Positions 3,935 to 44,848 of a DNA stretch of 45,261 nucleotides are shown here, piece by piece. Below the pieces are notes generated by a model. It did not search any database. It was not told where the DNA came from and worked only from the letters and a program-made list of their open reading frames with translations. Both the position numbers and the translations under genes were made by a program. Source of the stretch: Lachnospiraceae bacterium. GTDB taxonomy: Bacteria; Bacillota; Clostridia; Lachnospirales; Lachnospiraceae. The DNA lies in assembly GCA_017436305.1 (NCBI GenBank), contig JAFSDJ010000064.1:1-45261 (forward strand), given 5' to 3'. How positions within the stretch are numbered: the first letter of the stretch is position 1; every line of letters begins with the position of its first letter.

Positions 3935-3980
3935 TTACACAGCCTGACATCAAGTGTCCGGCTACTGTGTAAATAGTAAC
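3935..3980 (-). repeat. Leader repeat family R1, copy upstream of the HtrA-like gene
   Basis: On the minus strand this begins GTTACTATTTACACAG and points toward the HtrA-like gene. It folds on itself: TTACACAG (3935-3942) pairs with CTGTGTAA (3965-3972), and CCTGACA (3943-3949) pairs with TGTCCGG (3955-3961) with one mismatch. The core matches the copies near 6.5, 16.0, 18.3, 26.6, 31.9, 34.3 and 44.8 kb. Confidence 0.7.
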
Positions 3981-4051
3981 AATTTAAGCTCTTTTAAGTA
4001 TATCGGATAGCTTCTTTATTGTAAAGGTTCGTAGTATTTTTTTACAATGTA

Positions 4052-4060
4052 TGCTATACT
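4052..4060 (+). promoter_or_regulatory. Candidate extended -10 promoter of mutS2
   Basis: TGCTATACT is an extended -10 element (TGn plus TATACT at 4055-4060), with no convincing -35 box 17 bases upstream. It would give a leader of about 60 bases before the mutS2 ATG. The rest of the 3887-4128 spacer holds the R1 repeat and fragments of it. Confidence 0.4.
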
Positions 4061-4063
4061 AAG

Positions 4064-4102
4064 GTTGCTGTTTGAATAGCAACTACTACGTTTACTGTTC
4101 AC
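4064..4102. repeat. Two end fragments of repeat family R1 in the mutS2 leader
   Basis: GTTGCTGTTTGAATAGCAAC (4064-4083) is a small hairpin. In reverse complement it resembles the R1 start GTTACTATTCACACAG. TTTACTGTTCAC (4091-4102) matches the R1 terminal repeat on the plus strand, pointing to mutS2. They look like remnants of one or two elements; the mutS2 ribosome site follows at 4114-4120. Confidence 0.45.
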
Positions 4103-4128
4103 CACGTTTATTAAGAGGAATAAAAATT

Positions 4129-6498
4129 ATGGATAACAAAGCATTACGAGTACTTGAATACAATAAAATAATAGATTTGCTTACCGAAAAAGCTTCCTCC
4201 GACCCGGGACGGGAGCTTTGTAAGTCCCTGACTCCTCTACTTGATTTAGAAGAAATTCAGTTAGCACAGACTTACACAAAGGATGCCCTGTCAAGATTAT
4301 TCAAAAAGGGCAGCACCTCTTTTGGAGGCAACCGGGATTTAACTTATATTTGCAAGCATCTGGAAGTAGGCGGCTCCTTAAATGCTATAGAGCTGTTACA
4401 AATTGCAGCTCTCCTTGAAAATGTAGCACGGGTAAAAAGCTTTGGCCGCATGGAAGGTAAGGAATTTACAGACAGCTTAGACAGCTTTTTTGAGCAGTTA
4501 GAGCCTCTTACCCAGTTAAGTAGCCAGCTTCGCAGATGTATTTTATCAGAAGACGAAATTGCTGATGATGCCAGCTCAAACCTTCGTCATATCCGCAGGC
4601 AGATGACCATTACCGGAGACAAAATTCACAGCCAGTTAAATTCCATGGTAAACGGCTCTTATCGTACTTATTTGCAGGATGCTGTAATTACTATGAGAGA
4701 TAACCGTTACTGTATCCCGGTAAAAGCAGAATACAAAAATCAGGTGTCAGGTATGGTTCACGACCAGTCCGGAAGTGGCTCTACTTTATTTATTGAACCT
4801 TCTGCCATTATTGATTTAAATAATAAGCTAAAGGAATTATCCTTACAGGAAAAGGAAGAAATCGAGAAAATTTTAAGAGACCTTTCTATTCTTTGCAGTG
4901 AGCATACGCTAACTTTTAAACAAAATGCAGAGCTTATGACCTTTCTTGATTTTACCTTTGCCAAGGCTTCATTAGCTTTGGAGCAAAATGCTACAGAACC
5001 GATTTTCAATGAGCGTGGATATATTAACATCCGCAAGGGCCGTCATCCTCTTTTAAAAAAGGATAAAGTAGTGCCCATTGATATCTATTTAGGAGATGCC
5101 TTCAGCCAGCTTATTATTACAGGACCTAACACAGGCGGTAAAACCGTTTCCCTAAAAACCGTTGGTTTATTTACTTTAATGGGACAATCGGGACTTCATA
5201 TTCCGGCATTAGACAGAAGTGAACTAGGCATTTTTACAAATGTTTTTGCAGATATTGGGGATGAGCAGAGCATTGAGCAGAGCTTATCCACATTCTCCTC
5301 CCACATGACAAACATTGTCCACATTTTAAAGGAGGCAGATTCCCGTTCCCTGTGTTTATTTGATGAATTATGTGCAGGAACAGACCCTACAGAGGGAGCT
5401 GCGTTAGCCATTGCTATCTTAGAAAATTTAAAAAACAGGGGTGCCTCCACCATGGCAACTACCCACTATAGTGAGTTAAAGGTTTACGCTTTATCTAAAG
5501 ACCATGTAGAAAATGCCTGCTGCGAATTTAACGTAGAAACATTAAGTCCTACCTACAGGCTTTTAATCGGTATTCCCGGAAAAAGTAATGCCTTTGCTAT
5601 TTCAGGCAAATTAGGCTTATCGGATAACATTATTGAAAATGCCAAAAAACAGCTTTCCACAGAGGAAGAAAGCTTCGAGGATTTATTATCTGATTTGGAA
5701 AAAAGCCGTGTTATTATAGAAAAGGAACAGTTAGAAATCCAAACCTACAAACAGGAAATTGAAGCCTTAAAAAAACAATTAGAGGCAAAACAGGATAAAA
5801 TCGAAGCCTCCAGAGAACGTATTTTACGGGAAGCCAACGAAGAAGCAAGAGAGATTTTACAGGATGCAAAAGCAGTTGCAGATGAAACCATCCGTTCCTT
5901 CCAGAAATACGGCTCTAACACTTCCATGAAGGAAATGGAACAGAAACGAAACAAGGTAAGAGAAAAGATTTCTGAAAAAAATTCCAAGCTTTCTTTAAAA
6001 GCAAAAGAAACTCCGAAGGGGGGCTTAAATCCAAACCAGATAAAATTAGGCGACAGCGTAAAGGTGCTTTCCATGAATGTTAAAGGTACTATCAGTTCCA
6101 AGCCGGATGCCAAAGGAATGCTTTTTGTACAATGTGGCATTATCCGTTCCAAAGTACACATAAGCGACTTGATTCCTGTATTGGAAGAAGATATTAAGGC
6201 ACCTAATTTAACGAGAGCCAGAAATGGACGCATTAACGTTTCCAAAGCCTCCAATATTTCTCCGGAAATCAATCTTCTTGGAAAAACTGTAGATGAAGCT
6301 ATTGCCGCTTTGGATAAATATTTAGATGATGCTTATGTAACACACCTGCCAAGCGTGCGTATTGTTCACGGTAAGGGTACAGGTGCCCTAAGAAATGCCG
6401 TACAAAATCATCTGAAAAAACTGTCTTATATTAAATCCTTCCGCCTGGGCGAATTTGGCGAAGGTGATGCAGGTGTTACAATCGCAGAATTCAAATAA
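4129..6498 (+). CDS. mutS2: Endonuclease MutS2 (ribosome rescue and anti-recombination factor)
   Basis: MutS2 is a MutS-like ATPase without the mismatch-recognition domain. It was described as an anti-recombination nuclease and more recently as a sensor of collided ribosomes. The 789-residue protein shows core and clamp domains with a long coiled coil (about 495-630). The ATPase has Walker A GPNTGGKT (about 332-339) and Walker B CLFDELCAGTDP (Asp near 412). A KOW-like segment (KLGDSVKVLS) and a C-terminal Smr domain (RIVHGKGTGALR) follow. The Smr start motif reads INLLG rather than LDLRG. I start at the ATG at 4129 because AGAGGAA is 8 bases upstream and the length matches B. subtilis MutS2 (785); an in-frame start at 4072 would be built from repeat sequence. 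Confidence 0.94.
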   Translation: MDNKALRVLEYNKIIDLLTEKASSDPGRELCKSLTPLLDLEEIQLAQTYTKDALSRLFKKGSTSFGGNRDLTYICKHLEVGGSLNAIELLQIAALLENVARVKSFGRMEGKEFTDSLDSFFEQLEPLTQLSSQLRRCILSEDEIADDASSNLRHIRRQMTITGDKIHSQLNSMVNGSYRTYLQDAVITMRDNRYCIPVKAEYKNQVSGMVHDQSGSGSTLFIEPSAIIDLNNKLKELSLQEKEEIEKILRDLSILCSEHTLTFKQNAELMTFLDFTFAKASLALEQNATEPIFNERGYINIRKGRHPLLKKDKVVPIDIYLGDAFSQLIITGPNTGGKTVSLKTVGLFTLMGQSGLHIPALDRSELGIFTNVFADIGDEQSIEQSLSTFSSHMTNIVHILKEADSRSLCLFDELCAGTDPTEGAALAIAILENLKNRGASTMATTHYSELKVYALSKDHVENACCEFNVETLSPTYRLLIGIPGKSNAFAISGKLGLSDNIIENAKKQLSTEEESFEDLLSDLEKSRVIIEKEQLEIQTYKQEIEALKKQLEAKQDKIEASRERILREANEEAREILQDAKAVADETIRSFQKYGSNTSMKEMEQKRNKVREKISEKNSKLSLKAKETPKGGLNPNQIKLGDSVKVLSMNVKGTISSKPDAKGMLFVQCGIIRSKVHISDLIPVLEEDIKAPNLTRARNGRINVSKASNISPEINLLGKTVDEAIAALDKYLDDAYVTHLPSVRIVHGKGTGALRNAVQNHLKKLSYIKSFRLGEFGEGDAGVTIAEFK

Positions 6499-6621
6499 AC
6501 TATTCACACAGCAATCTGACACTTGCGGTCAGGCTGTTAAAACATGATTTGGGTGATGGTTTCTGCTTCCCAAAGGGAATTCGCATGCCATTATTTCAAG
6601 CAACAACCATAACCACGAAAT
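6499..6621 (+). repeat. Leader repeat family R1, near-full-length copy filling the mutS2 to response regulator gap
   Basis: The copy starts one base after the mutS2 stop (ACTATTCACACAG) and ends at the response regulator's AGGAGG. It carries CTGAC..GTCAG pairing arms (6516-6533), a CATGATT box, and a second half, GGTTTCTGCTTCCC..GGGAATTCGCATGC. That second half matches the reverse complement of the 26.6-kb copy (GGTTTCTGCTTCGCGAAGCG). It therefore shares most of its length with that 128-bp element, although its own far terminal repeat is poor. Confidence 0.65.
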
Positions 6622-6632
6622 AGGAGGTTTCT

Positions 6633-7343
6633 ATGGTAACAAAACAGAAAATTTTAATTGTAGATGATGATAATAATATTGCAGAATTAATTTCCCTTTA
6701 TTTAACAAAGGAATGCTTTGACACCTTAATTGTCAATGATGGAGAGTCTGCATTAGAATCATTAAAAACCTTCGAGCCTAACTTAATTTTATTAGATTTA
6801 ATGCTTCCGGGCATAGACGGCTACGAGGTTTGTCGGTCAGTCCGCGCTAACTCCAACATTCCAATTATTATGCTTTCTGCAAAAGGCGAAATCTTTGATA
6901 AAGTGTTAGGTTTGGAGCTTGGTGCTGATGATTATATGGAAAAACCTTTTGATTCCAAAGAGTTAGTGGCAAGAGTAAAAGCCGTTCTTCGTCGCTACAA
7001 ACAGGTTCCTACAGCAATCGAACCTGTAGATAATACAAAAAAAGTAGAATACACCGACTTAGTCATAAACTTAACCAATTATTCCGTTCTCTACATGGGA
7101 AAAGTTGTGGAAATGCCTCCAAAAGAGTTAGAGCTTTTGTATTTCCTTGCTTCCTCTCCCAATCAGGTCTTTACAAGAGAACAGCTTTTAGACCAGATTT
7201 GGGGCTATGAATACATTGGAGATACCAGAACGGTAGACGTACACATTAAAAGACTTAGGGAAAAAATTAATGACCATGCAGAATGGGGACTTGCCACAGT
7301 ATGGGGTATTGGTTACAAATTTGAAACAAAATCAAGAGGATAA
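6633..7343 (+). CDS. OmpR/PhoB-family response regulator
   Basis: This is a DNA-binding response regulator of 236 residues. The receiver domain (1-120) has the acidic pocket D11-D13, the phospho-acceptor Asp55 (LILLDLMLPG) and the conserved Lys in DYMEKPF. The C-terminal winged helix (about 135-232) includes VFTREQLLDQIWGYE and TRTVDVHIKRLREKI, typical of the OmpR class. AGGAGG lies 5 bases before the ATG. The sensor kinase follows after 3 bases, so the two form one operon and a cognate pair. The stimulus cannot be read from sequence. The only DNA upstream is a repeat element, so its promoter may lie in that repeat or before mutS2. Confidence 0.93.
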   Translation: MVTKQKILIVDDDNNIAELISLYLTKECFDTLIVNDGESALESLKTFEPNLILLDLMLPGIDGYEVCRSVRANSNIPIIMLSAKGEIFDKVLGLELGADDYMEKPFDSKELVARVKAVLRRYKQVPTAIEPVDNTKKVEYTDLVINLTNYSVLYMGKVVEMPPKELELLYFLASSPNQVFTREQLLDQIWGYEYIGDTRTVDVHIKRLREKINDHAEWGLATVWGIGYKFETKSRG

Positions 7344-7346
7344 GCT

Positions 7347-8774: not shown

Positions 8775-8800
8775 ACAAAAGCTGTGCTCCTACACAGCTT

Positions 8801-8842
8801 ACTGCATAGTCAATTTGTACAATCTGTTCTTGAAAGTGACTT
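8801..8842 (+). repeat. Repeat family R2, copy 1
   Basis: This 42-base stretch matches 37113-37154 at about 38 of 42 positions by eye. It includes ATAGTCAA, the near-palindrome around TTGTACAATCT, and TTCTTGAAAGTGACTTTA. It lies in the convergent space after the histidine kinase. A perfect hairpin, AAGCTGTG/CACAGCTT (8777-8798), precedes it. Confidence 0.7.
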
Positions 8843-8885
8843 TATGCTATGGAAGTAGGCCACCCACATCCTGATCCTATATATC

Positions 8886-8930
8886 AAAAAGTCGTACCAG
8901 TTAGCCTTTGCTAACCAGTACGACTTTTTT
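8886..8930. terminator. Bidirectional intrinsic terminator between the histidine kinase and trmL
   Basis: The arms GTCGTAC-CA-GTTAGC and GCTAAC-CA-GTACGAC enclose the loop CTTT. They are flanked by AAAAA on the left and TTTTTT on the right, so the hairpin can stop transcription from both convergent genes. Confidence 0.9.
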
Positions 8931-8931
8931 A

Positions 8932-9426
8932 TTATTCTTTCCAATTAAGCCTGTGAAGCTCTCCTTCTAACTGCATGTTGGAAAAATTATTTTGTCTTAA
9001 CGCCTCATACAGCACAATCGCCACTGAATTGGACAAATTCAAAGAACGAATCTTTTCAAGCATGGGAATACGAATGCAGGTTTCCTCATAATCCACCAGA
9101 ATTTCTTCCGGTATTCCGGCACTTTCTTTGCCAAACATAATAAAATCATCCGGCGAAAACTCCACATCTGTATAAACATGCTTTGCTTTCGTTGTGGCCA
9201 TCCAGATTTTGGCATTGGGATGTTTCTCTAAAAACTCCCGGAAATTCACGTATCTGGTTACATCCAAGTGCTCCCAGTAGTCCATTCCGGCACGCTTAAT
9301 GGATTTCTCATCCAGCTTAAATCCCAATGGTTCAATTAAATGAAGGCTCGTTCCCGTTGCCACACAGGTACGGCCAATATTTCCTGTATTCGCCGGAATT
9401 TCCGGCTGATGTAAAATAATGTTCAT
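8932..9426 (-). CDS. trmL: tRNA (cytidine(34)-2'-O)-methyltransferase TrmL
   Basis: This SPOUT-class (SpoU-like) enzyme methylates the ribose of the wobble base in tRNA-Leu isoacceptors. The 164-residue length is typical. Motifs are the N-terminal NIILHQPEIPANTGNIGRTC, the FGKESAGIPEEIL segment and the C-terminal knot with RIPMLEKIRSLNLSNSVAI. The start is 2 bases downstream of the aminotransferase stop, so it is the last gene of the lrp, aminotransferase, trmL run. It ends at a bidirectional terminator. Confidence 0.92.
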   Translation of the reverse strand: MNIILHQPEIPANTGNIGRTCVATGTSLHLIEPLGFKLDEKSIKRAGMDYWEHLDVTRYVNFREFLEKHPNAKIWMATTKAKHVYTDVEFSPDDFIMFGKESAGIPEEILVDYEETCIRIPMLEKIRSLNLSNSVAIVLYEALRQNNFSNMQLEGELHRLNWKE

Positions 9427-9428
9427 AA

Positions 9429-15300: not shown

Positions 15301-15960
15301 CTATCCTTTCTTAGCTTTCTTTTTCGCTGAGGTATTTTTCTTGTAATAGGAGCAGTATTCTGTTAAAAAACATTCTTCGCACTTAGGATTTCTGGCCATA
15401 CAGATTTGTCTCCCAAAGGTAATAACCTGTATGTTGTATAAAATCCAGTGATCCTTTGGCAGAACCTTCATTAAATCCTGCTCAATTTTTACCGGATCTT
15501 CTTCTTTTGTAAAGCCTAATTTCTTGGAGATTCTCTTTACATGAGTATCTACTACCACACTTGGCTCATGAAAAATATTGCCTCTGATTACATTAGCTGT
15601 TTTTCGTCCCACTCCCTGTAAGGCAGTCAGTGCATCTATATCCGATGGCACTTCTCCACCATGAATGATTAGCAAGTCCTTAGAGCAGGCAATAATATTT
15701 TTTGCCTTATTGTGGTAAAATCCCGTAGGCTTAATATCCTGCTCTAACTCCTTTAAATCAGCGTTGGCAAAATCCTCTATGCTTTTGTACTTCCTAAACA
15801 AATCCTTTGTTACAATGTTTACTCTGGCGTCAGTGCATTGGGCACTAAGCATGGTAGCAATTAATAGCTGCCAGGGATTTTCATGATCTAAATAGCACTT
15901 ATACTCGGTTGTATACACCTCATCCAGTTTGTCTAATATTTCTTTTGTACGTTTCGTCAT
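15301..15960 (-). CDS. nth: Endonuclease III (DNA glycosylase/AP lyase)
   Basis: Nth removes oxidised pyrimidines and cuts abasic sites in base excision repair. The 219-residue protein has the helix-hairpin-helix LTALQGVGRKTANVI with the catalytic Lys, then VVDTHVKRISKKLGF with the catalytic Asp. A C-terminal [4Fe-4S] loop, CMARNPKCEECFLTEYC, has the spacing C-x6-C-x2-C-x5-C. The ATG at 15960 follows AGGAG by 6 bases; a longer frame to 15993 runs into repeat sequence and has no support. The leader consists almost entirely of an R1 repeat copy. Confidence 0.95.
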   Translation of the reverse strand: MTKRTKEILDKLDEVYTTEYKCYLDHENPWQLLIATMLSAQCTDARVNIVTKDLFRKYKSIEDFANADLKELEQDIKPTGFYHNKAKNIIACSKDLLIIHGGEVPSDIDALTALQGVGRKTANVIRGNIFHEPSVVVDTHVKRISKKLGFTKEEDPVKIEQDLMKVLPKDHWILYNIQVITFGRQICMARNPKCEECFLTEYCSYYKKNTSAKKKAKKG

Positions 15961-15975
15961 ATACATTCTCCTGTA

Positions 15976-16028
15976 AATCATGCCGTTACACAACCACCCG
16001 GGTGTCCGGCTACTATGTAAGCAGCAAC
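15976..16028 (-). repeat. Leader repeat family R1, copy upstream of nth
   Basis: The minus strand starts GTTGCTGCTTACATAG, followed by TAGCCGGACACCCGGGTG and ending in the CATGATT box just before the nth ribosome site. The centre has become the palindrome CACCCGGGTG. It starts about 11 bases after the stop of the upstream radical SAM gene and points toward nth. Confidence 0.65.
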
Positions 16029-16038: not shown

Positions 16039-17778
16039 TCACAAAACCTGATGTATGGAAGCTTCATAAGTAAGTGGTGACCGGTTTTTATAATCAAATA
16101 GTAAAAAAACAGGCAGTAAAAGCTTCTTTCCGGTATTTAAATCATAGTCAAAAACCTCTATATGGGTCATTTTAGCCATCTGTCTTGCGTCATACTGTGT
16201 ATAATCAGGCAAAATTGTTCTCTCCTGAGCTTCCTTTCTGTAAAAAGCACGCATAGCTTCTTTATAAGGAGTTAAATCCTTTGAAAACTCCGGACGACTT
16301 TTGGCATTTTCCCTTAAATAAAAATCCATTGTAAGGAGCTCCCTAAATAGATTTTCTTCATAGAATACCGGAAGTTGCTCATTGCTAACTGCCGCTATTC
16401 TATTTATAGCAAATTCTAATAAAACCTGATACCGGTAAGTTCTGGAAGGAGTGCTTACAAAATATCCCATTTTTTCATAATAAGAAGCCAATGCTTCATA
16501 CAGTGCAAACGGGGTGTCAAAAAGCTTTTCCAATATGGGAATGGTAGCGGTAAACTGGTTGCTGTTATAATAAAGCTCCACCATTTCCTCAATCTGTTTT
16601 AATTTCCGTATCTCTTCGTAAGAAATCCATTTTGTATATAGCACCTCATAAGGCTCTCTGGTAGTATAAACAATGCCATATTCTTTTGCATTATGATATA
16701 TTTTAGAACCCTTTAACACTTTTAAAAAACCAAGCTGCAACTGTTCCGGTTTCATGGCATATACATCATTAAAAGACCTTTGAAAAGTTTCATAATCCTC
16801 ATAAGGAAGTCCGGCGATTAAATCTAAATGCTCGTGAATATTGTTCCCCTGCTTAATAGCCCCAACGATTTTACTTAATTTTTCCACATCCATAACTCTG
16901 TCAATCTCAGAAATAGTTGCAGGATTTGTGGACTGAACTCCAATTTCTAACTGAACCGCTCCCGGTCTTAATGTATTTAAAAGTGCAATTTCCTCTTCAT
17001 TTAAAATATCTGCTGCCACTTCAAAATGGAAATTGGTAATTCCGTTGTCATGGTCCTTAATATACTGCCATATGCCCATTGCATGAGCATGATTGCAGTT
17101 AAAAGTACGGTCTACAAATTTTACCTGAGCTACCTGATTGTCTAAGAAAAACTGAAGCTCCTTTTTTACAATTTCTAAATTTCGAAGTCTTACTGTTTTA
17201 TCAATGGAAGAAAGGCAATAACTGCATCTGAAAGGACATCCTCTGCTTGACTCATAGTAAATAATTTTATTTTGAAAATCCTCCAGATTTCCATACAAAA
17301 ATGGAAGCTTATTTAAATCAGTTAAAGGTCTGTCCTCCGTTTTCCCTTCCTGATATGTAATGCCTTTTATAGAGGCTAATTCCCTGTTTCCTTCCACATA
17401 ATATTCCATTAACTCTAAGAAGGTTTCTTCTCCTTCTCCCCGCATAATACCGGTAATTTCCGGATGTCCGGTTAGCACCTGCTCACTATTATAGGAAACC
17501 TCCGGACCTCCAAGCCATATAGGAACCCCAGGCAGTATTTTTCTGATTTCCTCTGTTAAAGTAAGAATAGCTGATATATTCCAGATATAGCAGGAAAATC
17601 CAAGTACATCCGGCTTTTTTTTATAAATATCTCCCATAATTTCGTCTAAGGACTGATTGATAGTATACTCAGCTAACTCTATATGCTCTTTATATGAGTT
17701 AGCATAAGCTCTTAGACTGTAAAGTCCGGGATTTGAATGTATGTATTTTGCATTTAAGGCTACTAATAAAAATTTCAT
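16039..17778 (-). CDS. B12-binding-domain radical SAM protein (DUF4080 type)
   Basis: The 579-residue protein has a cobalamin-binding-like Rossmann domain (about 1-135, with LGFSCYIWN and PIWLGGPEVSY). A radical SAM barrel follows, with the cluster motif GCPFRCSYC (Cys181, Cys185, Cys188). A C-terminal DUF4080 region contains PSRTYRYQVLLEFA. Related proteins carry out methyl transfer or unknown chemistry, so the substrate is not assignable. It overlaps the tadA stop by 4 bases (ATGA) and is probably co-expressed with tadA. The domain calls rest on motif recognition. Confidence 0.85.
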   Translation of the reverse strand: MKFLLVALNAKYIHSNPGLYSLRAYANSYKEHIELAEYTINQSLDEIMGDIYKKKPDVLGFSCYIWNISAILTLTEEIRKILPGVPIWLGGPEVSYNSEQVLTGHPEITGIMRGEGEETFLELMEYYVEGNRELASIKGITYQEGKTEDRPLTDLNKLPFLYGNLEDFQNKIIYYESSRGCPFRCSYCLSSIDKTVRLRNLEIVKKELQFFLDNQVAQVKFVDRTFNCNHAHAMGIWQYIKDHDNGITNFHFEVAADILNEEEIALLNTLRPGAVQLEIGVQSTNPATISEIDRVMDVEKLSKIVGAIKQGNNIHEHLDLIAGLPYEDYETFQRSFNDVYAMKPEQLQLGFLKVLKGSKIYHNAKEYGIVYTTREPYEVLYTKWISYEEIRKLKQIEEMVELYYNSNQFTATIPILEKLFDTPFALYEALASYYEKMGYFVSTPSRTYRYQVLLEFAINRIAAVSNEQLPVFYEENLFRELLTMDFYLRENAKSRPEFSKDLTPYKEAMRAFYRKEAQERTILPDYTQYDARQMAKMTHIEVFDYDLNTGKKLLLPVFLLFDYKNRSPLTYEASIHQVL

Positions 17779-18284
17779 TCCGGTTTCCTTTTTTTCTTTT
17801 CTCTAAGCTTTTTAAAAAAGTTTGTGAGCATTTGGCTACATTCTTTTTCCATAATGCCTCTTGTTACTTTTACCTGATGATTAAACTGTTCCATTTCCAA
17901 AAGATTTAAAATAGAACCGCCGCAGCCTGCCTTTGGATTCATGGATGCCATAATCACTTCACTGACTCTGGCCTGTACAATGGCTCCTGCGCACATCTGA
18001 CAGGGCTCTAATGTAACGTACAGGCTACACCCTTCCAAACGCCAGTCTCCTAACTTTTTACTTGCTTTTTTTATGGCAGCAAGCTCTGCGTGAGCCAGTG
18101 TATTTTTGTCGGTATTTCTCCGGTTATAGGCTCTGGCAATAATTTTTCCTTCATAAACGATTACACATCCTATGGGAACCTCTTCTAATGCCTCTGCCTT
18201 TTTGGCCTGCTTAATGGCTTCCTTCATATATTTATCATGAAGGGAATATTCTCTTTTTTCTATCTTTTTTGCTAAATCTGCCAT
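17775..18284 (-). CDS. tadA: tRNA-specific adenosine deaminase TadA
   Basis: TadA converts adenosine 34 to inosine in tRNA-Arg(ACG). The deaminase zinc motifs are plain: NTLAHAELAAIKKA (HAE, with the catalytic Glu) and LEPCQMCAGAIVQA (PCxxC). I start at the ATG at 18284 (169 residues) because AAGGA lies 11 bases upstream. The longer GTG start at 18314 falls in the terminal repeat of an R1 element, and its extra residues (MNSNARILET) are repeat-derived. The gene overlaps the radical SAM gene by 4 bases. The upstream divergent space to 18437 holds the repeat and promoter sequence. Confidence 0.92.
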   Translation of the reverse strand: MADLAKKIEKREYSLHDKYMKEAIKQAKKAEALEEVPIGCVIVYEGKIIARAYNRRNTDKNTLAHAELAAIKKASKKLGDWRLEGCSLYVTLEPCQMCAGAIVQARVSEVIMASMNPKAGCGGSILNLLEMEQFNHQVKVTRGIMEKECSQMLTNFFKKLREKKKRKPE

Positions 18285-18303
18285 AGTCTCTAAAATCCTT
18301 GCA

Positions 18304-18374
18304 TTACTGTTCACACATGAATCATGATATCTCGTAACCTGACAAAAAATATATAGCTACTGTGTAAACATTAA
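18304..18374 (-). repeat. Leader repeat family R1, short copy upstream of tadA
   Basis: This 71-bp unit has imperfect terminal inverted repeats, TTACTGTTCAC (18304-18314) and GTAAACATTAA (18364-18374). On the minus strand it contains ACACAGTAGC, TTGTCAGG and the CATGATT box. It lacks the GGTTTCTGC middle hairpin of the 26.6-kb copy. It points toward tadA. Confidence 0.65.
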
Positions 18375-18437
18375 ATCCTTGCTAACAGTTAAAAACATGA
18401 TACAATAATTTATATCTTAACATAAAGAGGTAACGAT

Positions 18438-26042: not shown

Positions 26043-26522
26043 TTATAAAAATAAAATCATGGGCGTATAGCGTACTCCTTCTTTTTCCTGCTCTTTGTCC
26101 GTATCCTGAAAACCCAGTTTGTGATAAAAACCTACTCCATAAGGGGATGAGTTAACTGTTACTTTAAACTCACCCATTTCCGTTATGAGGTACTTTTTTA
26201 AATACTCTATCAAAGCCCTGCCTACACCTTGATAATGGTACCTTGCATCTACAAAAAGGAGGGATATATGGGTACAGTCCCGAAGGCTTATCATACCAAT
26301 GTTTTTCCCTTTATAAAAAGCACCAAATATTTGGTAATACCCCCTTAAAAACATTTTATAAAGAGTAGGATCCGTAATAAAATCCTGAAAACTTTTAATG
26401 CCTTCTTCTGTATAATCCTCTGCCTCAAAGCGCAAAAAGGTTTTCCACACTATCCCCATCACATCCTCGTATTCATCCTGATATATAGAGCGTATCTGTA
26501 GCTTTTTGCTTTCTAATTCCAT
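26043..26522 (-). CDS. GNAT-family N-acetyltransferase
   Basis: The 159-residue acetyltransferase shows LLFVDARYHYQGVGRALIEYL, the acetyl-CoA pyrophosphate loop (QGVGRA), and a C-terminal YGVGFYHKLGFQDTD motif. The substrate is unknown. It lies about 77 bases upstream of the HD-GYP gene on the same strand and could be the first gene of that unit. Its own leader contains a full R1 element (26547-26674) and an unusually long T-run just before the start. Confidence 0.83.
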   Translation of the reverse strand: MELESKKLQIRSIYQDEYEDVMGIVWKTFLRFEAEDYTEEGIKSFQDFITDPTLYKMFLRGYYQIFGAFYKGKNIGMISLRDCTHISLLFVDARYHYQGVGRALIEYLKKYLITEMGEFKVTVNSSPYGVGFYHKLGFQDTDKEQEKEGVRYTPMILFL

Positions 26523-26546
26523 AGTATCCCTCTTTTTTTTTTATAC

Positions 26547-26674
26547 TACTGTTCACTTCGTTACCAGTAGCCCTTGGTTTCTGCATGCTAATTCGCTTCG
26601 CGAAGCAGAAACCAACTCTCCAATCAAACTAGTACGTAGCCTGACAGCAAGTGTCGGCTACTGTGTGAAAAGTA
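26547..26674 (-). mobile_element. Best copy of repeat family R1: 128-bp MITE-like unit with terminal inverted repeats
   Basis: Ends TACTGTTCAC (26547-26556) and GTGAAAAGTA (26665-26674) are inverted repeats matching at 9 of 10 positions. Inside are three hairpins. CTACTG/CAGTAG lies at 26547-26570. TTGGTTTCTGC/GCAGAAACCAA (26574-26615) encloses TTCGC/GCGAA. AGCC-GACA/TGTC-GGCT lies at 26638-26660. It fills the gap between the ldh stop (7 bases away) and the GNAT leader and encodes no protein. It matches the 6.5-kb copy over most of its length. Confidence 0.7.
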
Positions 26675-26680
26675 TCTTTT

Positions 26681-27658
26681 TTATATTACCTTATTAATAA
26701 GAGGTAGTCCATTTTCCAATGCATAAGCATTTTCTAAAGTTTCCACCGCAATAGACTGCATGGCCTCTCTTGTAAAGAATCCCATGTGAGAAGTAATAAT
26801 CACATTTGGGAAGGTGGTAAGTCTGGCTAAAAGGTCGTCCTCCATAATGTCGTTGGAACGGTCCTCATAAAATACTCCTTCCTCTTCCTCATATACATCC
26901 AGTCCCACTCCCGCAAATTTCTTACTTAAAAGTCCTTCAATTAAAGCTTCAGTATCTATTAATGCTCCTCTGGATGTATTAATTAAATACACATTATCTT
27001 TCATTTTGCTAATAGCTTTTTTGTTAATTAAGTGTTTTGTTTCTTTTGTAAGGGGACAGTGAAGGCTTATAACATCTGCCTTTTTCATCAGTTCATCCAG
27101 GGATACATATTCTACATCCAATCCTTTTACCGGATATGGATCATATGCCAGTACTGACATGCCAAAACCCTCTAAAATCCTTATCATAGCCTGTCCAATT
27201 TTACCGGTCCCAATAATACCGGCTGTTTTATTGTGCAAATCCCGACCCATTAAGCCATTAATGCTCATATTAAAATCTCTGGTTCTGCTATATGCCTTAT
27301 GGGTAAAACGGTTTACAGATAGCAACAGTGCCATAGCATATTCTGCCACTGCTTCCGGAGAATAGCTTGGTACACGCAGTACGGCTATTTTGTCCTCTGC
27401 TGCCTTAATATCCACATGATTGTAGCCTGCACTTCGTAAAAGAATCGCTTTTACTTTCATATCATAAAGCCTTTCAATCATCTGTTTATTCACATAATCA
27501 TTGACAAAAACACAAATAGCATCATAGCCTGCTGCCATGAAAATAGTTTCCTCATTACATGGTACTTCCATAAAATGTAAAGAAAAGCCATACTCTTTAG
27601 CAAGTGGTTCAAACCAGATGCGGTCGTATGGCTTTGTAGAATAAAATGCAATTTTCAT
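26681..27658 (-). CDS. ldhA: D-lactate dehydrogenase (D-2-hydroxyacid dehydrogenase family)
   Basis: The enzyme reduces pyruvate to D-lactate with NADH, recycling NAD in fermentation. The 325-residue length is typical. The nucleotide-binding loop is AGIIGTGKIGQAM, followed by the catalytic region LINTSRGALIDTEAL (Arg), a Glu in VGLDVYEEEEG, and the catalytic His in VIITSHMGFFT. The start is the ATG at 27658, with the ribosome site AAAGGAT upstream. Other D-2-hydroxyacids are possible substrates, but DVYEEEEGVF and HMGFFT are typical of D-LDH. Confidence 0.88.
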   Translation of the reverse strand: MKIAFYSTKPYDRIWFEPLAKEYGFSLHFMEVPCNEETIFMAAGYDAICVFVNDYVNKQMIERLYDMKVKAILLRSAGYNHVDIKAAEDKIAVLRVPSYSPEAVAEYAMALLLSVNRFTHKAYSRTRDFNMSINGLMGRDLHNKTAGIIGTGKIGQAMIRILEGFGMSVLAYDPYPVKGLDVEYVSLDELMKKADVISLHCPLTKETKHLINKKAISKMKDNVYLINTSRGALIDTEALIEGLLSKKFAGVGLDVYEEEEGVFYEDRSNDIMEDDLLARLTTFPNVIITSHMGFFTREAMQSIAVETLENAYALENGLPLINKVI

Positions 27659-31749: not shown

Positions 31750-31871
31750 GGAAACGAGGGTTTTAGCAAACAGGACGCCCACCCGTAAAACACATAGTCC
31801 ATTCACAACCTACAACACCCGTTGAAAAGGTTTTCGAATGAACGATGTGTTTTACGGGTGGATTGGTTTCC
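31750..31871. other. Long imperfect hairpin (possible structured RNA or palindromic element) in the metG/DUF885 spacer
   Basis: A perfect 17-bp stem is formed by CCACCCGTAAAACACAT (31779-31795) and ATGTGTTTTACGGGTGG (31845-31861). Inside are CATTC/GAATG, AACC/GGTT and CAAC/GTTG pairs; outside is GGAAAC/GTTTCC (31750-31755, 31866-31871). The whole unit can fold as one rod. It lies between divergent genes, so it is not a terminator of either. The rest of this 320-base spacer is AT-rich and shows no ORF. Confidence 0.75.
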
Positions 31872-31880: not shown

Positions 31881-31905
31881 GCCTGATTGCTGTATGAATA
31901 GTAAC
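31881..31905 (-). repeat. Leader repeat family R1, end fragment upstream of metG
   Basis: The minus strand reads GTTACTATTCATACAGCAAT and then CAGGC, matching the start of the 6.5-kb copy. It borders the long hairpin and points toward metG. Confidence 0.55.
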
Positions 31906-34241: not shown

Positions 34242-34288
34242 CCTGTCAGATAGAGAGCTTTGTTACCGGCTACTATGGAAACAATAAC
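34242..34288 (-). repeat. Leader repeat family R1, copy adjoining the marR ribosome site
   Basis: The minus strand reads GTTATTGTTTCCATAGTAGC and then CGG, ending in CTGACAGG, which runs into the ribosome site. It resembles the 16.0-kb copy and points toward marR. Confidence 0.55.
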
Positions 34289-34297: not shown

Positions 34298-34342
34298 GTC
34301 ACTATGCACACAGCTTTTAGACATTTGCCGGCAGACTGCGTA
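34298..34342 (+). repeat. Leader repeat family R1, copy in opposite orientation in the marR leader
   Basis: The plus strand reads GTCACTATGCACACAG, then GACATTTGCCGGCAGACTG and the box AACATGAT. It faces the 34242-34288 copy head-on and is the only clear copy not aimed at its downstream gene. Confidence 0.5.
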
Positions 34343-34400
34343 ACAACATGATAAACAATCTATCTTTTCATTTGCATATTTACGTTTCCTAATCAGTGGC

Positions 34401-34429
34401 ATTATAGCACATATTTCTAGGTAAATCAA
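34401..34429 (-). promoter_or_regulatory. Sigma-A-type promoter of marR
   Basis: TTGATT and TATAAT are separated by 17 bases on the minus strand, predicting a start near 34394 and a leader of about 160 bases made largely of R1 repeats. Confidence 0.7.
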
Positions 34430-34472
34430 TGGAAATACTTTGAAAGTCGAATTATTTTTTTATCAAAGTATT

Positions 34473-35498
34473 TTATAATTTTGCCTTGATATGTCCTACG
34501 TTTTTTATAAGTACGGAAATACTTCCATCCTGATTAGTAATAAATTCTACTCTGCCCGGGTCCTTGTACTGTTCCATGGGAATTTTAATTTCTATACCGG
34601 AGTCTGTGGTTAAATGTTGTGTCTCATATTTTTTGGTAGTGCGCTCACTTTGAGGAGCAACTTCCTGCTTTACCATATCATATTTTTCCATTTTATCCTG
34701 AAATTCGATTTTTAATTCCGGCTTTTCTTCAAAAATTTTTTCTGCAATTTCCTCTACCATAAAGCCACCATTTTCTTCCAAGGCCTCGTTAATTATATTT
34801 TTTGCACGCATGGTTTCTTTGTAAAGGTCCGTTTCGTCATAATAGTTGTTCTGCACAGTTTCTACTGCTTTTGTTACGATGGAAAGCTTAGATTTGTGGG
34901 ATAGTTCACTGCTACACTTTAAGAACAGGTAGGTAAAATAGTTAGTTTTTTCTCCATTTACTTCATACTTTTTCTCAATGGCGCGTACAGACAAATCTTC
35001 TAAATCAATAATGGCTGCTTCTGAAAGCCTCTGGCTTTCTGCCGGTAGGATGGAACGGTGTTTGATAATCTCATTTTCATTTCCTTCTCCTTCCTCTACA
35101 GACTTTGTGCGGTGAGTGTAGGATTCTTTATAATTCATTTTTAAAATGGCTAACTGTTCCCTGTCATTGGCCTTAAACCGCACAATTACCAAATCTGCCG
35201 GCGGAATATCAATGTTTGAGTTCATAATCTGGTACAAATAATTTGCCATGTCCTGACTCATAGGAATGAAATTTTCCTCGCTGTACTGGATAAGCATCTG
35301 GTAAACTTCGGATTCTTTTTCGTAAAATTTGCATTTTTTGCAGTCATCGCTGGACATGATTTTATAAATGTGTTCTCTTAAAAAGTCTGCAAAATCCGAG
35401 CCAAACTCAATTTCCGTATCTGATAAAACAGGGAGCCCCACAAGGGAGTCCATAATATGTACAATCACTCTTTTAATTCTTATGTCTTCTTTCTGCAT
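34473..35498 (-). CDS. Nucleoid-associated protein of the NdpA/YejK family
   Basis: The 341-residue protein matches the NdpA (37-kDa nucleoid-associated) family by its opening IKRVIVHIMDSLVGLPVLSD and the later PADLVIVRFKANDREQLAIL, plus a charged helical C-terminal half. Family members bind the nucleoid, and some occur in phage or plasmid neighbourhoods. The frame has ATGs at 35504 and 35498; the latter is favoured, since AGGAGG is 9 bases upstream rather than 3. It overlaps the Mrr-like gene by about 26 bases, so translation is coupled. A short cysteine pair (CKKCKFYEK) near residue 54 could bind metal. Confidence 0.8.
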   Translation of the reverse strand: MQKEDIRIKRVIVHIMDSLVGLPVLSDTEIEFGSDFADFLREHIYKIMSSDDCKKCKFYEKESEVYQMLIQYSEENFIPMSQDMANYLYQIMNSNIDIPPADLVIVRFKANDREQLAILKMNYKESYTHRTKSVEEGEGNENEIIKHRSILPAESQRLSEAAIIDLEDLSVRAIEKKYEVNGEKTNYFTYLFLKCSSELSHKSKLSIVTKAVETVQNNYYDETDLYKETMRAKNIINEALEENGGFMVEEIAEKIFEEKPELKIEFQDKMEKYDMVKQEVAPQSERTTKKYETQHLTTDSGIEIKIPMEQYKDPGRVEFITNQDGSISVLIKNVGHIKAKL

Positions 35499-37057: not shown

Positions 37058-37112
37058 TTTTGGAGAAATTTCCTATATAAATCAGGGTACAGGAAGCCCT
37101 TTCACAACTTGC

Positions 37113-37154
37113 CACATAGTCAAATTGTACAATCTATTCTTGAAAGTGACTTTA
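37113..37154 (+). repeat. Repeat family R2, copy 2
   Basis: It matches 8801-8842 at about 38 of 42 positions. Like that copy it lies between a plus-strand gene and a convergent minus-strand gene. It contains the palindrome ATTGTACAAT and the near-palindrome AAAGTGACTTT, and ends next to the EAL gene stop. Confidence 0.7.
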
Positions 37155-39495: not shown

Positions 39496-39606
39496 GTTTG
39501 TCTCCGTCTTTGCCTCTTTCTAAATTTTATGTGATTTGTGCAGGCTATATGACTAATAGTCACTGGCGATCAATATCATTTTTGACAGCCTCATATCTTT
39601 GGATAA

Positions 39607-40617: not shown

Positions 40618-40682
40618 GTAATTTCCTCCAAGATATATTTTTATTAGCAGTTGCTTACTCACTTTCCGGTTATTTACAATTC

Positions 40683-42074
40683 TTACAGTTCACAGTTATT
40701 AACAGTTCTTGGGAACGGAATTACATCGCGAATGTTACTCATACCTGTTAAGTACATAACACATCTTTCAAATCCAAGTCCAAATCCTGCATGTCTTGCA
40801 GTACCGTATTTACGCAAATCTAAATAGAAATCGTAATCTTCAGGATTTAAATCAAGCTCCTTCATACGATTTAACAGCTTATCGTAGTCATCCTCTCTCT
40901 GGCTTCCTCCGATAATTTCACCAATGCCCGGTACAAGGCAGTCCATAGCTGCTACTGTTTTGTTGTCATCATTCATTTTCATGTAGAATGCTTTAATATC
41001 CTTTGGATAATCAGTAACGAAAACAGGACGTTTAAATTCTTTTTCTGTTAAGAATCTTTCATGCTCTGTTTGTAAATCACAGCCCCAGGATACTTTATAT
41101 TCAAATTCATCATTGTGTTTTTCTAAAATTTCAATGGCTTCTGTGTAAGTTACATGACCAAAATCAGAATTAACAACGCCTTCCAATCTTTCGATAAGTC
41201 CCTTGTCTACAAACTGGTTGAAAAATGCCATTTCTTCCGGAGCATTTTCCATTACATAACGGATAATGTATTTAATCATACTTTCTGCTAACATCATGTC
41301 GTCTTTTAAGTCTGCAAATGCCATTTCAGGCTCAATCATCCAGAACTCTGCCGCATGTCTAGTTGTGTTGGAATTCTCTGCTCTGAAGGTTGGTCCAAAG
41401 GTGTAAATGTTTTTAAATGCCATGGCATAGGTTTCACCATTTAACTGACCGCTAACTGTTAAGTTGGTAGGCTTGTTAAAGAAATCCTGTGAAAAATCTA
41501 CTGCTCCATCTTCTGTTTTTGGAATGTTGTTTAAATCCATTGTAGTAACCTGGAACATTTCTCCTGCACCTTCACAGTCACTTCCTGTAATCAGTGGAGT
41601 ATGCACATAAACAAATTCTCTTTCCTGGAAAAATTTGTGAATGGCATAGGCAATTAGGGAACGAACTCTGAATACTGCCTGGAATGTGTTAGTTCTTGGT
41701 CTTAAATGAGAAATTGTTCTTAAATATTCAAAGGAATGTCTCTTTTTCTGTAATGGGTAATCCGGTGCAGAAGCTCCTTCGATTTCTACACTGGTTGCCT
41801 GTATTTCAAAAGGCTGCTTTGCCTGTGGTGTTTCTGTTACAACACCTTTTACAATCAGGGCAGCACCTACGTTACATTTGCTTATCTGTTGGAAGTTCTC
41901 TAATTTATCTGAATATACTACCTGTAATGGTTCAAAGAAAGTACCATCGTTAATTACTAAAAATCCGAAGGTCTTAGAGTCCCTTATACTTCTAAGCCAT
42001 CCGCCGATTGTAACTTCTTTTCCAATGTACTCCTCCTTGTTTCTAAATAACTGTTTGATTGATACCAAATCCAT
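40683..42074 (-). CDS. asnS: Asparagine-tRNA ligase
   Basis: AsnS charges tRNA-Asn. The 463-residue class II synthetase has an N-terminal OB-fold anticodon domain ([20 protein letters not shown]) and motif 2 ([20 protein letters not shown]). Motif 3 near the end is [16 protein letters not shown]. It heads a short asnS-asnA unit. The upstream spacer (42075-42329) contains an inverted repeat and a perfect palindrome but no T-box that I can see. The ribosome site is AAGGAGA. Confidence 0.96.
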
Positions 42075-42116
42075 AGTTAGTCTCCTTTTTCACGTTTTGT
42101 ATTGTATTTTCTTCCC

Positions 42117-42188
42117 ATTTCCCTTGGGAAATTTCACTATCCAACCAAAATGCCCTCCTTCTGTATATTTTGATAATAGGGCATTATA
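42117..42188 (-). promoter_or_regulatory. Inverted repeats around a possible asnS start region
   Basis: TATAAT lies at 42183-42188 on the minus strand. Overlapping it are AATGCCCT (42178-42185) and its inverted copy AGGGCATT (42149-42156, read on the minus strand). A perfect 16-base palindrome, ATTTCCCTTGGGAAAT (42117-42132), follows. This could be an operator or leader structure. It may instead be a weak terminator of spmA, since TTTTGG follows the arm. Confidence 0.4.
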
Positions 42189-42329
42189 CGTAGCATTCGT
42201 TCATAATCTGCTATATTTTGAAACACCGGTGATAAAAGAATATCATATTTTACATTGTATTCAAATGTAATTTCTGAAATTTTTTCTCTATCCTTACAGT
42301 ATATCCGCCTTTTCACAAAAAATCAATTA

Positions 42330-42929
42330 TTACCTATCCTTTATCTTACAATAAACAATTGCCACCAACGTACTAAACAGGGTAGCCACAATAGCCGGGG
42401 CGATAATCACTGCCGGATTTACGCTGCCGTACTGACTGCGGTAGGCTATCATATTTACGGGAATTAACTGAAGTGATGAAATATTCAGTATAAGAAATGT
42501 GCACATTTCATTGCTGGCAATCCGTTCCATATCTGAAATATAGGCGGGATTTCCCCGTTCTTTTTCCAAGTCAGCCAGCTTTTCCATTGCCTTTAATCCT
42601 GCAGGAGTACACGCCCAGCCAAGACCTAAAACATTGGCGATAATGTTGGTAGCAATGTAATCTAAGGACTCATGTCCTTTTGGGATTCTTGGAAACATAA
42701 AGTGAATAAACGGTCCCAGCCCCTTTGTAAGTTTTTTAATAAGCCCGGCGCTTTTAGCGATTTCCATAAGTCCTACCCATAAAGAAATGACTCCTGCCAT
42801 AGTAATACACAGAGTAACTGCTTCTTTGGAAGAATCAATTGCTGCCTGGGATATTTCCGCCATTTTTCCTGTAAAGGAGCCGTATAATACGCCTATGATA
42901 ATCATGAAAGCCCAGATGTAATTTAACAT
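42330..42929 (-). CDS. spmA: Spore maturation protein A
   Basis: The partner of SpmB is a 199-residue membrane protein with the nucleoside-recognition domain. Typical stretches are AFMIIIGVLYGSFTGKMAEI, NIIANVLGLGWACTPAGLKA and SNEMCTFLILNISSLQLIPV. I use the ATG at 42929 with GGAGAGG (42938-42944); the ORF to 42968 adds residues unlike the family (MVWLSCCCGEVFT). It is separated from spmB by asnS and asnA, which is unusual. It probably marks the organism as a spore former, or a descendant of one. Confidence 0.9.
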   Translation of the reverse strand: MLNYIWAFMIIIGVLYGSFTGKMAEISQAAIDSSKEAVTLCITMAGVISLWVGLMEIAKSAGLIKKLTKGLGPFIHFMFPRIPKGHESLDYIATNIIANVLGLGWACTPAGLKAMEKLADLEKERGNPAYISDMERIASNEMCTFLILNISSLQLIPVNMIAYRSQYGSVNPAVIIAPAIVATLFSTLVAIVYCKIKDR

Positions 42930-43089
42930 AGTAAAAACCTCTCCACAGCAACAACTCAGCCATACCATTCAATAAGTGCCGGAATATACATTTTGACAAA
43001 AACAAACTTATTGGCCGAACTGTTACTTTCCGTATTGTATGGTTTACTATCAATATAAGCGGTTTGTGGGTATTGTATGACTGTTTTTC

Positions 43090-44799
43090 CTATTTTATCC
43101 TAATCTTTACCTTTGCCTTTTTATTACTTCCATCGGTAGATGTGGCAGTGATTGTCACGGTCTTGCCTTTTCCGGCTTTTTTGGCGGTTACTTTGCCTTT
43201 GCTGCTTACTTTGGCATATTTCGTATTGGAGCTTGTCCATTTTAAGGTTTTGTTTACGCTTTTGCCGGTAGTTTTTATGGTTGCCTTTAGCTTCATGGAT
43301 TTGCCGGCTTTTAAAGTCTCTGAGGAAGCTTCCAATTTTATGCTTTTTACTGTGTGCTTCATAATTTTGATTTTAATAGAAGCTTTTTTGCCACTGCCGT
43401 CCTTTGCTATGGCAGTTATAGTAACGGATTTACCTGCTCCGGCTTTTTTCAGCGTGATTTTACCGTTTTTATCCACGGTGGCATTTTTTTTGTTGCTTGT
43501 TTTCCACAAAACTGCTTTATTTGTGGCATTTTTAGGTGTTATAGAAAGGGTAAGCTTTATTTTTTTGCCTGCTGCCAGCTTTTTGGAAGGGGCTTTTATA
43601 GTAAGCTTTTCTATCATTACCGGTTGTTCCTCCTTGTTCGGAGAAACATCCCCACCACTGGTTTCATAGCTTTTATCATCTGCTTCTGTGTCTTCATTTT
43701 TGTTATCCTCTGTTCCCGTGCTCTCATCAGAAGATAAATTAATGTACAATGCAGGGCGTACTCCTATTCCTTCGTAGGACACTAAAAGTCCCCTCTGGTT
43801 TGTATAACCGTAGAAATTCACATAGGTGCCATCATAGCCATACATACCGGGCCCCCGAAGCCACCAGTCACAGTTTTCTTCCATACCGGTTGCCGGACTT
43901 TTTGTGATGCCCATTGTCCATGCATAATCGCTGGCTGCTGCATGTCTGTCACCGGAGGAGGCATTTGGATTAGATGAAAAACCGTATTTTTCACTGGTAA
44001 CATCTGCTATAGACAATAGGAAAATACTATCCGTGGTGGTGTTGCCGCCTGCTGTATTGTAGCTTTCATTAGCCGGATTTGTCAGATTGGTCCGTGCTAT
44101 GGAATCTTTCTCTTCTTGTGTAAAGGCTACTTGAAGAAAACCGCCAGCACTATAATCAATTCCATCTAAGTTTTGCTCACTGCCATAGCCGTTGAGCCAG
44201 CTTCTAAGAGTGCTTTTCTCCCAGGTTATTTCCTGTTTTGATTCATTGTATTTCTTGCAATCTAATACTTCGTCCGCCACTACAAACAAGGTTTTTCCGT
44301 TATTTTCAAGTATTTTCCATTTAATTGGTTCCCATTTGTAGTAATAAGGTTGATCGTCTTTGATAATACGGCTGTATTTGATGCCATTTACCAAAACACA
44401 TATGCCCATGTAGTCATTGCCCGGGTTTTCTGTATTATCTTCCGTGACAACAGACTGGTTAATTGTCTCATTCTCATTAGAGACATTGGATGCCTCTTTG
44501 ATATTTTCATTATTTTCCTGCTCTGCTATGGCACTTTCTATGGCTTCAATTAAAGCTTTATCAGTTATTTCTGTCTGGGGATAGGTGCCAAAATCTATGT
44601 ATTTCTCTGTGGTATTTTCTACGGCTAAATCCCTTGTTTCATTTTCTGCCTGTCCTTCTGCCTGTACTTCTGGCTGTCCTTTTACCGAATTTTCCTTATT
44701 TATGGTGACAGCATTTAATATTATGGTATTTGAAAACCATAATGTTGTAAATACCAGTGCTAAATATATGATTGATTTTTTGTACTTTTTGTTTTTCAT
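43090..44799 (-). CDS. Secreted DUF6273 protein with two bacterial Ig-like (BIG2) domains
   Basis: The 569-residue protein has an N-terminal signal or anchor (IIYLALVFTTLWFSNTIILN) and an acidic linker. A DUF6273 domain follows (about 80-365), with IDFGTYPQTEI, the later WEPIKWKILENNGKTLFVVA and WLRGPGMYGYDGTYVNFYG. The C-terminus carries two BIG2 repeats (about 400-485 and 490-569), each with a TSxxxKxAxVxxxGKxTxKKAG motif. It is probably displayed on the cell surface. There is no sortase or LPxTG motif. The ATG at 44799 follows a weak AGAAG; the ORF reaches 44850, but that part is R1-repeat sequence. No homologue in the window. Confidence 0.83.
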   Translation of the reverse strand: MKNKKYKKSIIYLALVFTTLWFSNTIILNAVTINKENSVKGQPEVQAEGQAENETRDLAVENTTEKYIDFGTYPQTEITDKALIEAIESAIAEQENNENIKEASNVSNENETINQSVVTEDNTENPGNDYMGICVLVNGIKYSRIIKDDQPYYYKWEPIKWKILENNGKTLFVVADEVLDCKKYNESKQEITWEKSTLRSWLNGYGSEQNLDGIDYSAGGFLQVAFTQEEKDSIARTNLTNPANESYNTAGGNTTTDSIFLLSIADVTSEKYGFSSNPNASSGDRHAAASDYAWTMGITKSPATGMEENCDWWLRGPGMYGYDGTYVNFYGYTNQRGLLVSYEGIGVRPALYINLSSDESTGTEDNKNEDTEADDKSYETSGGDVSPNKEEQPVMIEKLTIKAPSKKLAAGKKIKLTLSITPKNATNKAVLWKTSNKKNATVDKNGKITLKKAGAGKSVTITAIAKDGSGKKASIKIKIMKHTVKSIKLEASSETLKAGKSMKLKATIKTTGKSVNKTLKWTSSNTKYAKVSSKGKVTAKKAGKGKTVTITATSTDGSNKKAKVKIRIK

Positions 44800-44825
44800 A
44801 TGTTTCAACTTCTTTTCTCTTATTT

Positions 44826-44848
44826 CCGGTTGCTGTGTGTGCAGTAAC
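44826..44848 (-). repeat. Leader repeat family R1, decayed copy upstream of the DUF6273 gene
   Basis: The minus strand reads GTTACTGCACACACAGCAAC and then CGG. It matches the 3.9-kb copy at about 17 of 23 positions and points toward the DUF6273 gene. Confidence 0.45.

Follow-up and report, generated by a model that had tools for sequence, protein, structure and literature searches.

Short, non-coding, multi-copy elements with a patchy occurrence between related species have been described in several bacteria, among them MITEAba12 (PMC6382973) and the RUP and SPRITE elements of pneumococcus (PMC3049150); they are described as likely parasitic and able to affect co-transcribed genes. REPINs, as described in PMC3116915, are small palindromic units with a possible hairpin form and many intergenic copies. 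Here we analyzed R1, a repeat family found in a stretch of 45,261 nucleotides from a Lachnospiraceae bacterium (contig JAFSDJ010000064.1 of GCA_017436305.1; the whole stretch is called the window). A preliminary description of the window, made from its letters alone, had presented R1 as a family of leaders that always point to the downstream gene, and had proposed profile searches of this and related genomes and a count of orientation relative to the next gene. R1 shares the features listed above with MITEAba12 and RUP/SPRITE; it differs in its end sequences, though these were not compared letter by letter, in having two hairpins inside the unit, of which one covaries, and a complete small palindrome as its 3' end, and in that its parent insertion sequence was not found. 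With the REPINs it shares the small palindromic units, possible hairpin form and many intergenic copies, and differs in its 8-bp duplications and inverted ends. The R1 repeats were interpreted as copies of a miniature inverted-repeat transposable element (MITE), a non-autonomous transposable element (probability about 0.92). The most fitting class for R1 is a new MITE superfamily with common ends across many Lachnospiraceae-type genomes; it shows MITE behaviour, and a dedicated leader is not supported.

The aligned copies define a unit of approximately 132 nt with outer ends GTTACTGTTCAC…GTGAACAGTAAC, longer than most boxes of the preliminary description. From 5' to 3' the layout is GTTACTATTCACACAG, hairpin 1 (CAGCC-GACA-cttg-TGTC-GGCTG), CGTAATAGCATGATTCA, hairpin 2 (TTGGTTTCTGC…GCAGAAACCAA) and a terminal GTTACTGGTTACGGAGTGAACAGTAAC, and the 3' end of the full unit is a 27-nt palindrome. 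The outer ends are mutually inverted and present on full-length copies in the alignment, i.e. they are terminal inverted repeats (TIRs); 90.9% of cells in the TIR helix were paired over 11 pairs (18 chosen copies). At only about 130 nt, R1 has no room for a transposase gene, an absence judged by length alone.

The window is contig C56 of a draft genome (G000; 2.60 Mb, 107 contigs). That the family is dispersed and its similarity real, as first proposed, was confirmed: GGCTACTGTGTRAANAGTAAC with up to 3 mismatches gave 5 matches in the window vs. 0 in 100 shuffles, and 31 across the genome vs. 2 for the reversed control, while the core GACACTTGCTGTCAGGCTG gave 35 vs. 0. A covariance model built on 13 chosen full copies was then used for the whole-genome profile search, with at least 90 matches at E ≤ 1 and at least 67 copies at E < 0.01, the latter taken as the working set. 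The 67 copies are a lower bound, because 150 of 1,109 first-look candidates were scored. They were sorted into an older group (51) and a younger, near-identical group (16), and the younger subfamily is about 143 nt long with the 5' start GTTACTGTTCAGTCAGCAACAAAACACTTG; R1 as a whole is short (approximately 132-143 nt) and multi-copy. A tandem array of R1 with a 138-nt period was observed at G000:C10:16146-16406 and G000:C20:1-131, interrupted at contig ends. Several G000 draft contigs terminate within identical R1 copies, and R1 may be one reason for assembly breaks.

Insertion was read from the flanks of the copies. Target-site duplications (TSDs) of 8 bp (≤1 mismatch) were found at 8 of the 30 G000 copies with a good 3' end, compared with 2 of 870 mismatched flank pairs; at a length of 8 bp this genome gave five exact flank matches, and lengths of 9-11 bp gave none. 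The same duplication was present at 8/14 copies in the relatives G008 and G018 (0/182 control pairs). For public contigs, 117 pattern matches were collected and the 5' end was picked on sequence alone; 59 were left out (5' end out of range, or edge too near), and 44 of the other 58 units carried a TSD, 33 of them exact (6/3,306 control pairs). Both window copies that retain two ends have TSDs, TTTTTTAT at 26545-26676 and ATCCTTGC at 18303-18374. The copy at 26545-26676 is missing in 5/5 congeneric genomes, all with the same two flanking genes; the site is plainly empty in four, and G004 holds a different small palindrome there. A second contrast of filled and empty sites was given by loci L246 and L252 (filled) vs. 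L183. As a separate observation, a sister kind of element with ends GTAACTGT...ACAGTTAC, also occurring as a 27-nt palindrome, was seen in G004 (L408), L183 and L151, and the G004 sister palindrome occupies the exact spot of window copy 26545-26676.

Relatives (60 genomes) were searched with R1 at E ≤ 1e-6 and with stricter filters, which miss weak copies. Two of the 60, G008 with 13 copies and G018 with 1, contained R1, and both belong to other genera; R1 was not found in the five congeners at these settings. The G008 copies have the ends and layout of R1, and their hairpin sequences differ. The 3' unit pattern, GTTACTGG N0-4 CGGAGTGAACAGTAAC, occurred in at least 116 stretches of public genome contigs. 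Titles among the matches listed (80 of 116) were Lachnospiraceae, named genera (Anaerobium, Murimonas (records marked unverified), Eisenbergiella, Blautia, Kineothrix, Oliverpabstia, Acetatifactor), or less specific (Eubacterium, Lachnoclostridium, Eubacteriales, Clostridia, uncultured bacterium); the distribution over genera is patchy. A viral contig (L287:12374-12515) was seen to hold a 142-nt element of the R1 class with an exact 8-bp duplication. No description of the R1 family was found among the open-licence papers listed in searches for its end sequences, Lachnospiraceae MITEs and small mobile palindromes. Inverted ends, 8-bp TSDs, absence from congeners and patchy spread identify the copies as insertions, contrary to the leader, insulator, terminator or regulatory RNA role first suggested.

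Window copies were scored by the covariance model with filters off and a list up to E 10. The features are as follows.

26545-26676, minus strand: full-length copy of the probable MITE, 132 nt, with both TIRs and both inner hairpins (model E 1.9e-28)
26537-26544, no strand: left copy of the 8-bp TSD TTTTTTAT (identical 8 bp at 26677-26684)
26677-26684, no strand: right copy of the 8-bp TSD TTTTTTAT (identical 8 bp at 26537-26544)
18303-18374, minus strand: short copy, 72 nt, with an internal deletion and both ends kept (model 18277-18375, minus strand, E 3e-5)
18295-18302, no strand: left copy of the 8-bp TSD ATCCTTGC (exact partner 18375-18382)
18375-18382, no strand: right copy of the 8-bp TSD ATCCTTGC (exact partner 18295-18302)
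6499-6621, plus strand: degraded copy (model 6496-6620, plus strand, E 4e-10)
3935-3980, minus strand: 5' half with TIR and hairpin 1 (model 3898-3980, minus strand, E 1e-7; match to the GGCTACTGTGTRAANAGTAAC-type pattern)
15976-16028, minus strand: degraded 5' half (model 15936-16028, minus strand, E 0.02)
34298-34360, plus strand: degraded 5' half with hairpin 1 and CATGAT box (model 34298-34436, plus strand, E 0.0014)
34242-34288, minus strand: TIR-like fragment (34268-34288, 3 mismatches of 21; absent from the model list on its own strand, E ≤ 10)
31881-31905, minus strand: possible TIR fragment upstream of metG (1 mismatch of 15; model E 2.1)
4064-4102, minus strand: small palindromic TIR fragment (4069-4083, 2 mismatches of 15; pattern matched on the plus strand)
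44826-44848, minus strand: weak TIR fragment ahead of a DUF6273 gene (2 mismatches of 15; absent from the model list, E ≤ 10)

Six window copies were sound by the model. The entries at 31881, 34242 and 44826 are end fragments at most; the 15-mer behind 44826-44848 (≤3 mismatches) had 11 window matches, with about 2 expected by chance. Fragment 34242-34288 lies head to head with copy 34298, 9 bases apart, and it is 34298, first listed as the opposite copy of this pair, that is the better one. The full-length copy has a D-2-hydroxyacid dehydrogenase gene (26681-27658) on one side and a GNAT gene (26043-26522) on the other, and the 72-nt copy is directly upstream of tadA (start 18284). Copy 6499-6621 has lost its 3' end but keeps the 5' TIR, hairpin 1 and some of hairpin 2; it begins 1 base past the stop of a mutS2/Smr-type gene (4129-6498), and a response-regulator gene (6633-7343) is next. 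Copy 3935-3980 lies in a divergent region ahead of an HtrA-type gene (2573-3886), 15976-16028 is flanked by a radical-SAM gene (16039-17778) and by nth (15301-15960), and 34298-34360 faces an opposite-strand gene (34473-35498, minus strand). Three other repeats were noted in the window: a 59-nt direct repeat, 85% identical, at 8786-8844 and 37096-37154 (GCTCCTACACAGCTTACTGCATAGTCAATTTGTACAATCTGTTCTTGAAAGTGACTTTA), unlike R1; a long inverted repeat at 31779-31861 (26-nt arms, 92%, CCACCCGTAAAACACATAG...), upstream of metG and adjoining the 31881 fragment; and a 23-nt intergenic inverted repeat at 8883-8932 (87%, arms 4 nt apart), terminator-like by eye.

For orientation, genes were called by codon score, with approximate starts; an earlier, cruder gene caller gave somewhat different neighbours and was dropped. 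Five of the six sound window copies point to the following gene (34298 does not). The genome-wide count refuted 'always': among the 67 G000 copies both neighbours were same-sense in 32 and both opposite in 14 (P = 0.011), the other contexts being divergent (8), convergent (3), contig edge (9) and gene overlap (1), and the next gene had the same sense in 40 of the 57 copies with both neighbours called. The younger G000 subfamily had 6 same-sense and 4 opposite copies. The 50 TSD-verified public copies were balanced, with 16 same-sense and 16 opposite (15 divergent, 0 convergent, 3 at an edge), and none lay within a called gene; these two sets speak against the argument that random insertion would not give the bias. 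The 14 G008/G018 copies were 6 same-sense vs. 3 opposite, with 1 within a gene, and 11 solitary small units from public contigs favoured a bias (8 vs. 1, P = 0.04). Copies were mostly detected via the 5' half, and antisense copies trimmed from the gene side may be missed; part of the window bias may arise because the 5' half, used for recognition, survives in gene-side-trimmed sense copies. Bias was therefore also calculated for complete copies alone. Pointing to the next gene is thus not a general property of the full element.

The distance to a start codon facing the element was compared on its downstream side (element in sense) and its upstream side (element in antisense). Such a start codon lay less than 90 nt away downstream in 10/33 vs. 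upstream in 1/31 copies of the public set, 25/43 vs. 3/23 in G000 and 3/10 vs. 1/7 in G008/G018; 14 further copies of other genomes did not fit (1/8 vs. 2/11). When complete copies were pooled, leaving out edge and convergent contexts, 24 sense vs. 6 antisense copies lay within this distance and 45 vs. 54 farther away. The bias was present at every cut-off tried from 30 to 90 nt (P = 0.0009-0.006), and faded at 105 nt (P = 0.02), 120 nt (P = 0.07) and 150 nt (P = 0.2); a rank test over all distances gave P = 0.044 for complete copies and P = 0.25 for the public set alone. A position-dependent sense bias near start codons survives, with a 90-nt cut-off that was picked after data inspection, and it would be expected if antisense copies were selected against in leaders or if sense copies were beneficial. 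One tentative explanation, which we regard as somewhat unlikely, is co-option: near start codons, sense copies would act as outward promoters, improve the leader or supply a 5' hairpin that stabilises, and selection would remove antisense copies. The position-dependent bias of complete copies, none of it at 90 nt or beyond, is consistent with this, as are the 5' halves retained ahead of start codons in G000. Its weight is reduced by the post hoc cut-off, the fading at longer distances, the rank tests and the one discordant subset; moreover, the degraded-copy signal may partly be ascertainment, and purifying selection alone yields the same bias.

The observation that several copies start just past the previous stop codon was borne out, and it is unlinked to one direction. 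Of 39 copies behind a same-sense gene, 22 had their 5' end no more than 15 nt past its stop; of 18 copies whose 3'-side gene is opposite, 11 had their 3' end within 15 nt of that gene's stop. Many sense copies would thereby place a stable RNA hairpin right past a stop, as do ribosome termination structures (PMC7518266); these are described as conserved mRNA structures with a re-initiation role, whereas the position of R1 results from insertion.

Structure was analyzed in a set of 18 chosen copies from several subfamilies (A2). In hairpin 1, 91.9% of cells were paired, with both-side changes in 7 of 9 pairs; the hairpin 1 and TIR helices together were 91.3% paired, vs. 80.4% for shuffles and 19-42% when the partner was slid by 1-3 columns. 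Pairing of hairpin 1 is maintained via compensatory changes. Selection on the hairpin, as RNA or as single-stranded DNA, would explain this, and so would a mutational route in which one arm is copied from the other. Folding against shuffles gave z = -4.5 and -5.2 for two full copies and about -2 for two degraded copies. These stable folds and the covarying hairpin, together with the sense excess in G000, its concentration near start codons and the 8 vs. 1 solitary units, are the observations that would suit a family serving the host as leader, terminator, insulator or regulatory RNA ahead of genes. Other results count against such a family. Terminator-like signals (hairpin and T run) in sense/antisense were 25/16 of 48 public copies, 4/4 of 26 in G000 and 4/10 of 14 in the relatives; the signal was thus inconsistent between orientations and sets. 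Rfam gave 0 matches in the window at gathering score; at E ≤ 1 in 8 loci, the only matches were three below threshold (a T-box in L152, two microRNA families in L109). The downstream genes in the window are also varied. A host-serving role is considered very improbable, and a dedicated leader or RNA family is rejected on the TSDs, the unoccupied sites and the overall orientation balance of the public full copies.

Several results weigh against a MITE. No autonomous element with R1 ends was found, the search covering two genomes (three transposase families) and the loci examined. End pairs with exact duplication, searched to 8 kb in those loci, included none above 395 nt. Twenty five-prime ends (19 stretches, two copy-rich genomes), chosen from 31 as lacking a known 3' unit nearby, were followed outward: 8 paired at 61-164 nt and 12 had no far end within about 3 kb. 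G000 and G008 contained 3 matches to PF01609, 1 weak match to PF13610 and 0 to PF00872, with no plausible end pair by eye. In G000, 22 of the 30 copies with a good 3' end lack a duplication, and most old copies are degraded; the tadA locus aligned too divergently across the genus for an empty site to be read. Finally, the covariation of hairpin 1 lies outside the TIRs, and a plain MITE does not need it. Near transposase matches, single ends with 1 mismatch were all that was seen (L282, L283), and recurrent open reading frame clusters in the 116 public loci were judged solely by distance to the repeat. Viral contigs (51 stretches) held two MITE-like elements, in L287 and L298, and no partner.

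On general grounds, the 8-bp duplications and inverted ends of R1 suggest a DDE-type transposase. REP/REPIN-type (repetitive extragenic palindromic) units, mobilised by a REP-associated tyrosine transposase (RAYT), would likewise be short palindromes with hairpins, in extragenic positions and with solitary small units; the combination of 8-bp TSDs and extended TIRs favours DDE-type insertion, given the duplication behaviour attributed to RAYT elements, and this origin is regarded as extremely improbable.

If R1 is a MITE, a transposase acting in trans would recognise GTTACTGTTCAC/GTGAACAGTAAC and insert the unit between genes, and each insertion would make the 8-bp staggered duplication; the ends, duplications and unoccupied sites themselves are observed. 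Intergenic insertions would be tolerated, often right past stop codons and in either orientation. Old copies would lose the middle or one end through deletions, with short direct repeats as probable deletion points. Very near a start codon mainly sense copies would persist, presumably because antisense copies are selected against there. Hairpin 1 probably serves the element's own life cycle, e.g. in recognition as a hairpin or cruciform.

Solitary palindromes of 25-27 nt, e.g. GTTACTGGTCACGGAGTGAACAGTAAC, bear 8-bp duplications of their own. Among 169 small units examined, which include full-copy ends, 22 had an 8-bp duplication with ≤1 mismatch (12 exact), vs. 4/28,392 control pairs. In six genomes reached via named loci, the 71 3' units comprised 15 solitary units with duplication, 35 ends of longer elements (106-195 nt, with duplication) and 21 that stayed unassigned. 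These palindromes are likely remnants of full copies, which carry the small unit as their 3' end. GTTACTG forms a direct repeat in full copies, once at their 5' end and once within the 3' unit, so that a deletion from one to the other leaves exactly the solitary unit, with the duplication kept. Such deletion predicts a hybrid with T at position 8, and five were found, three of them solitary with a duplication (≤1 mismatch); duplications are likewise retained in further shortened forms (45, 61 and 72 nt). Some observations go against it. One T-type unit stood in a full-copy context (L442) and one had symmetric flanks with no clear duplication (L438). Exact duplications occur in 12 of the 22 solitary units, a match that is not required of remnants of old copies. 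Nor was any locus found that holds the full copy in one strain and the solitary unit in another. We favour deletion over direct insertion of small units. A 61-nt derivative with a near-exact duplication was seen to recur in G062 (L463, L435) and in viral contig L298, and was perhaps formed by deletion between CGCGA repeats.

A more far-reaching proposal is a pan-Lachnospiraceae group of hairpin-based miniature elements, in which the mobile form would be a folded single strand, hairpin 1 a selected recognition structure, and the bare palindrome itself insertable with an 8-bp duplication; this is thought improbable. If it were true, the 25-27-bp palindrome, too short to loop as a duplex between two transposase subunits, would be among the smallest mobile DNAs.

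A supposed regulatory leader family is replaced by a mobile element. Two questions are thereby raised: why antisense copies are rare right ahead of start codons, and what the lower size limit is for a DNA that inserts with a target duplication.

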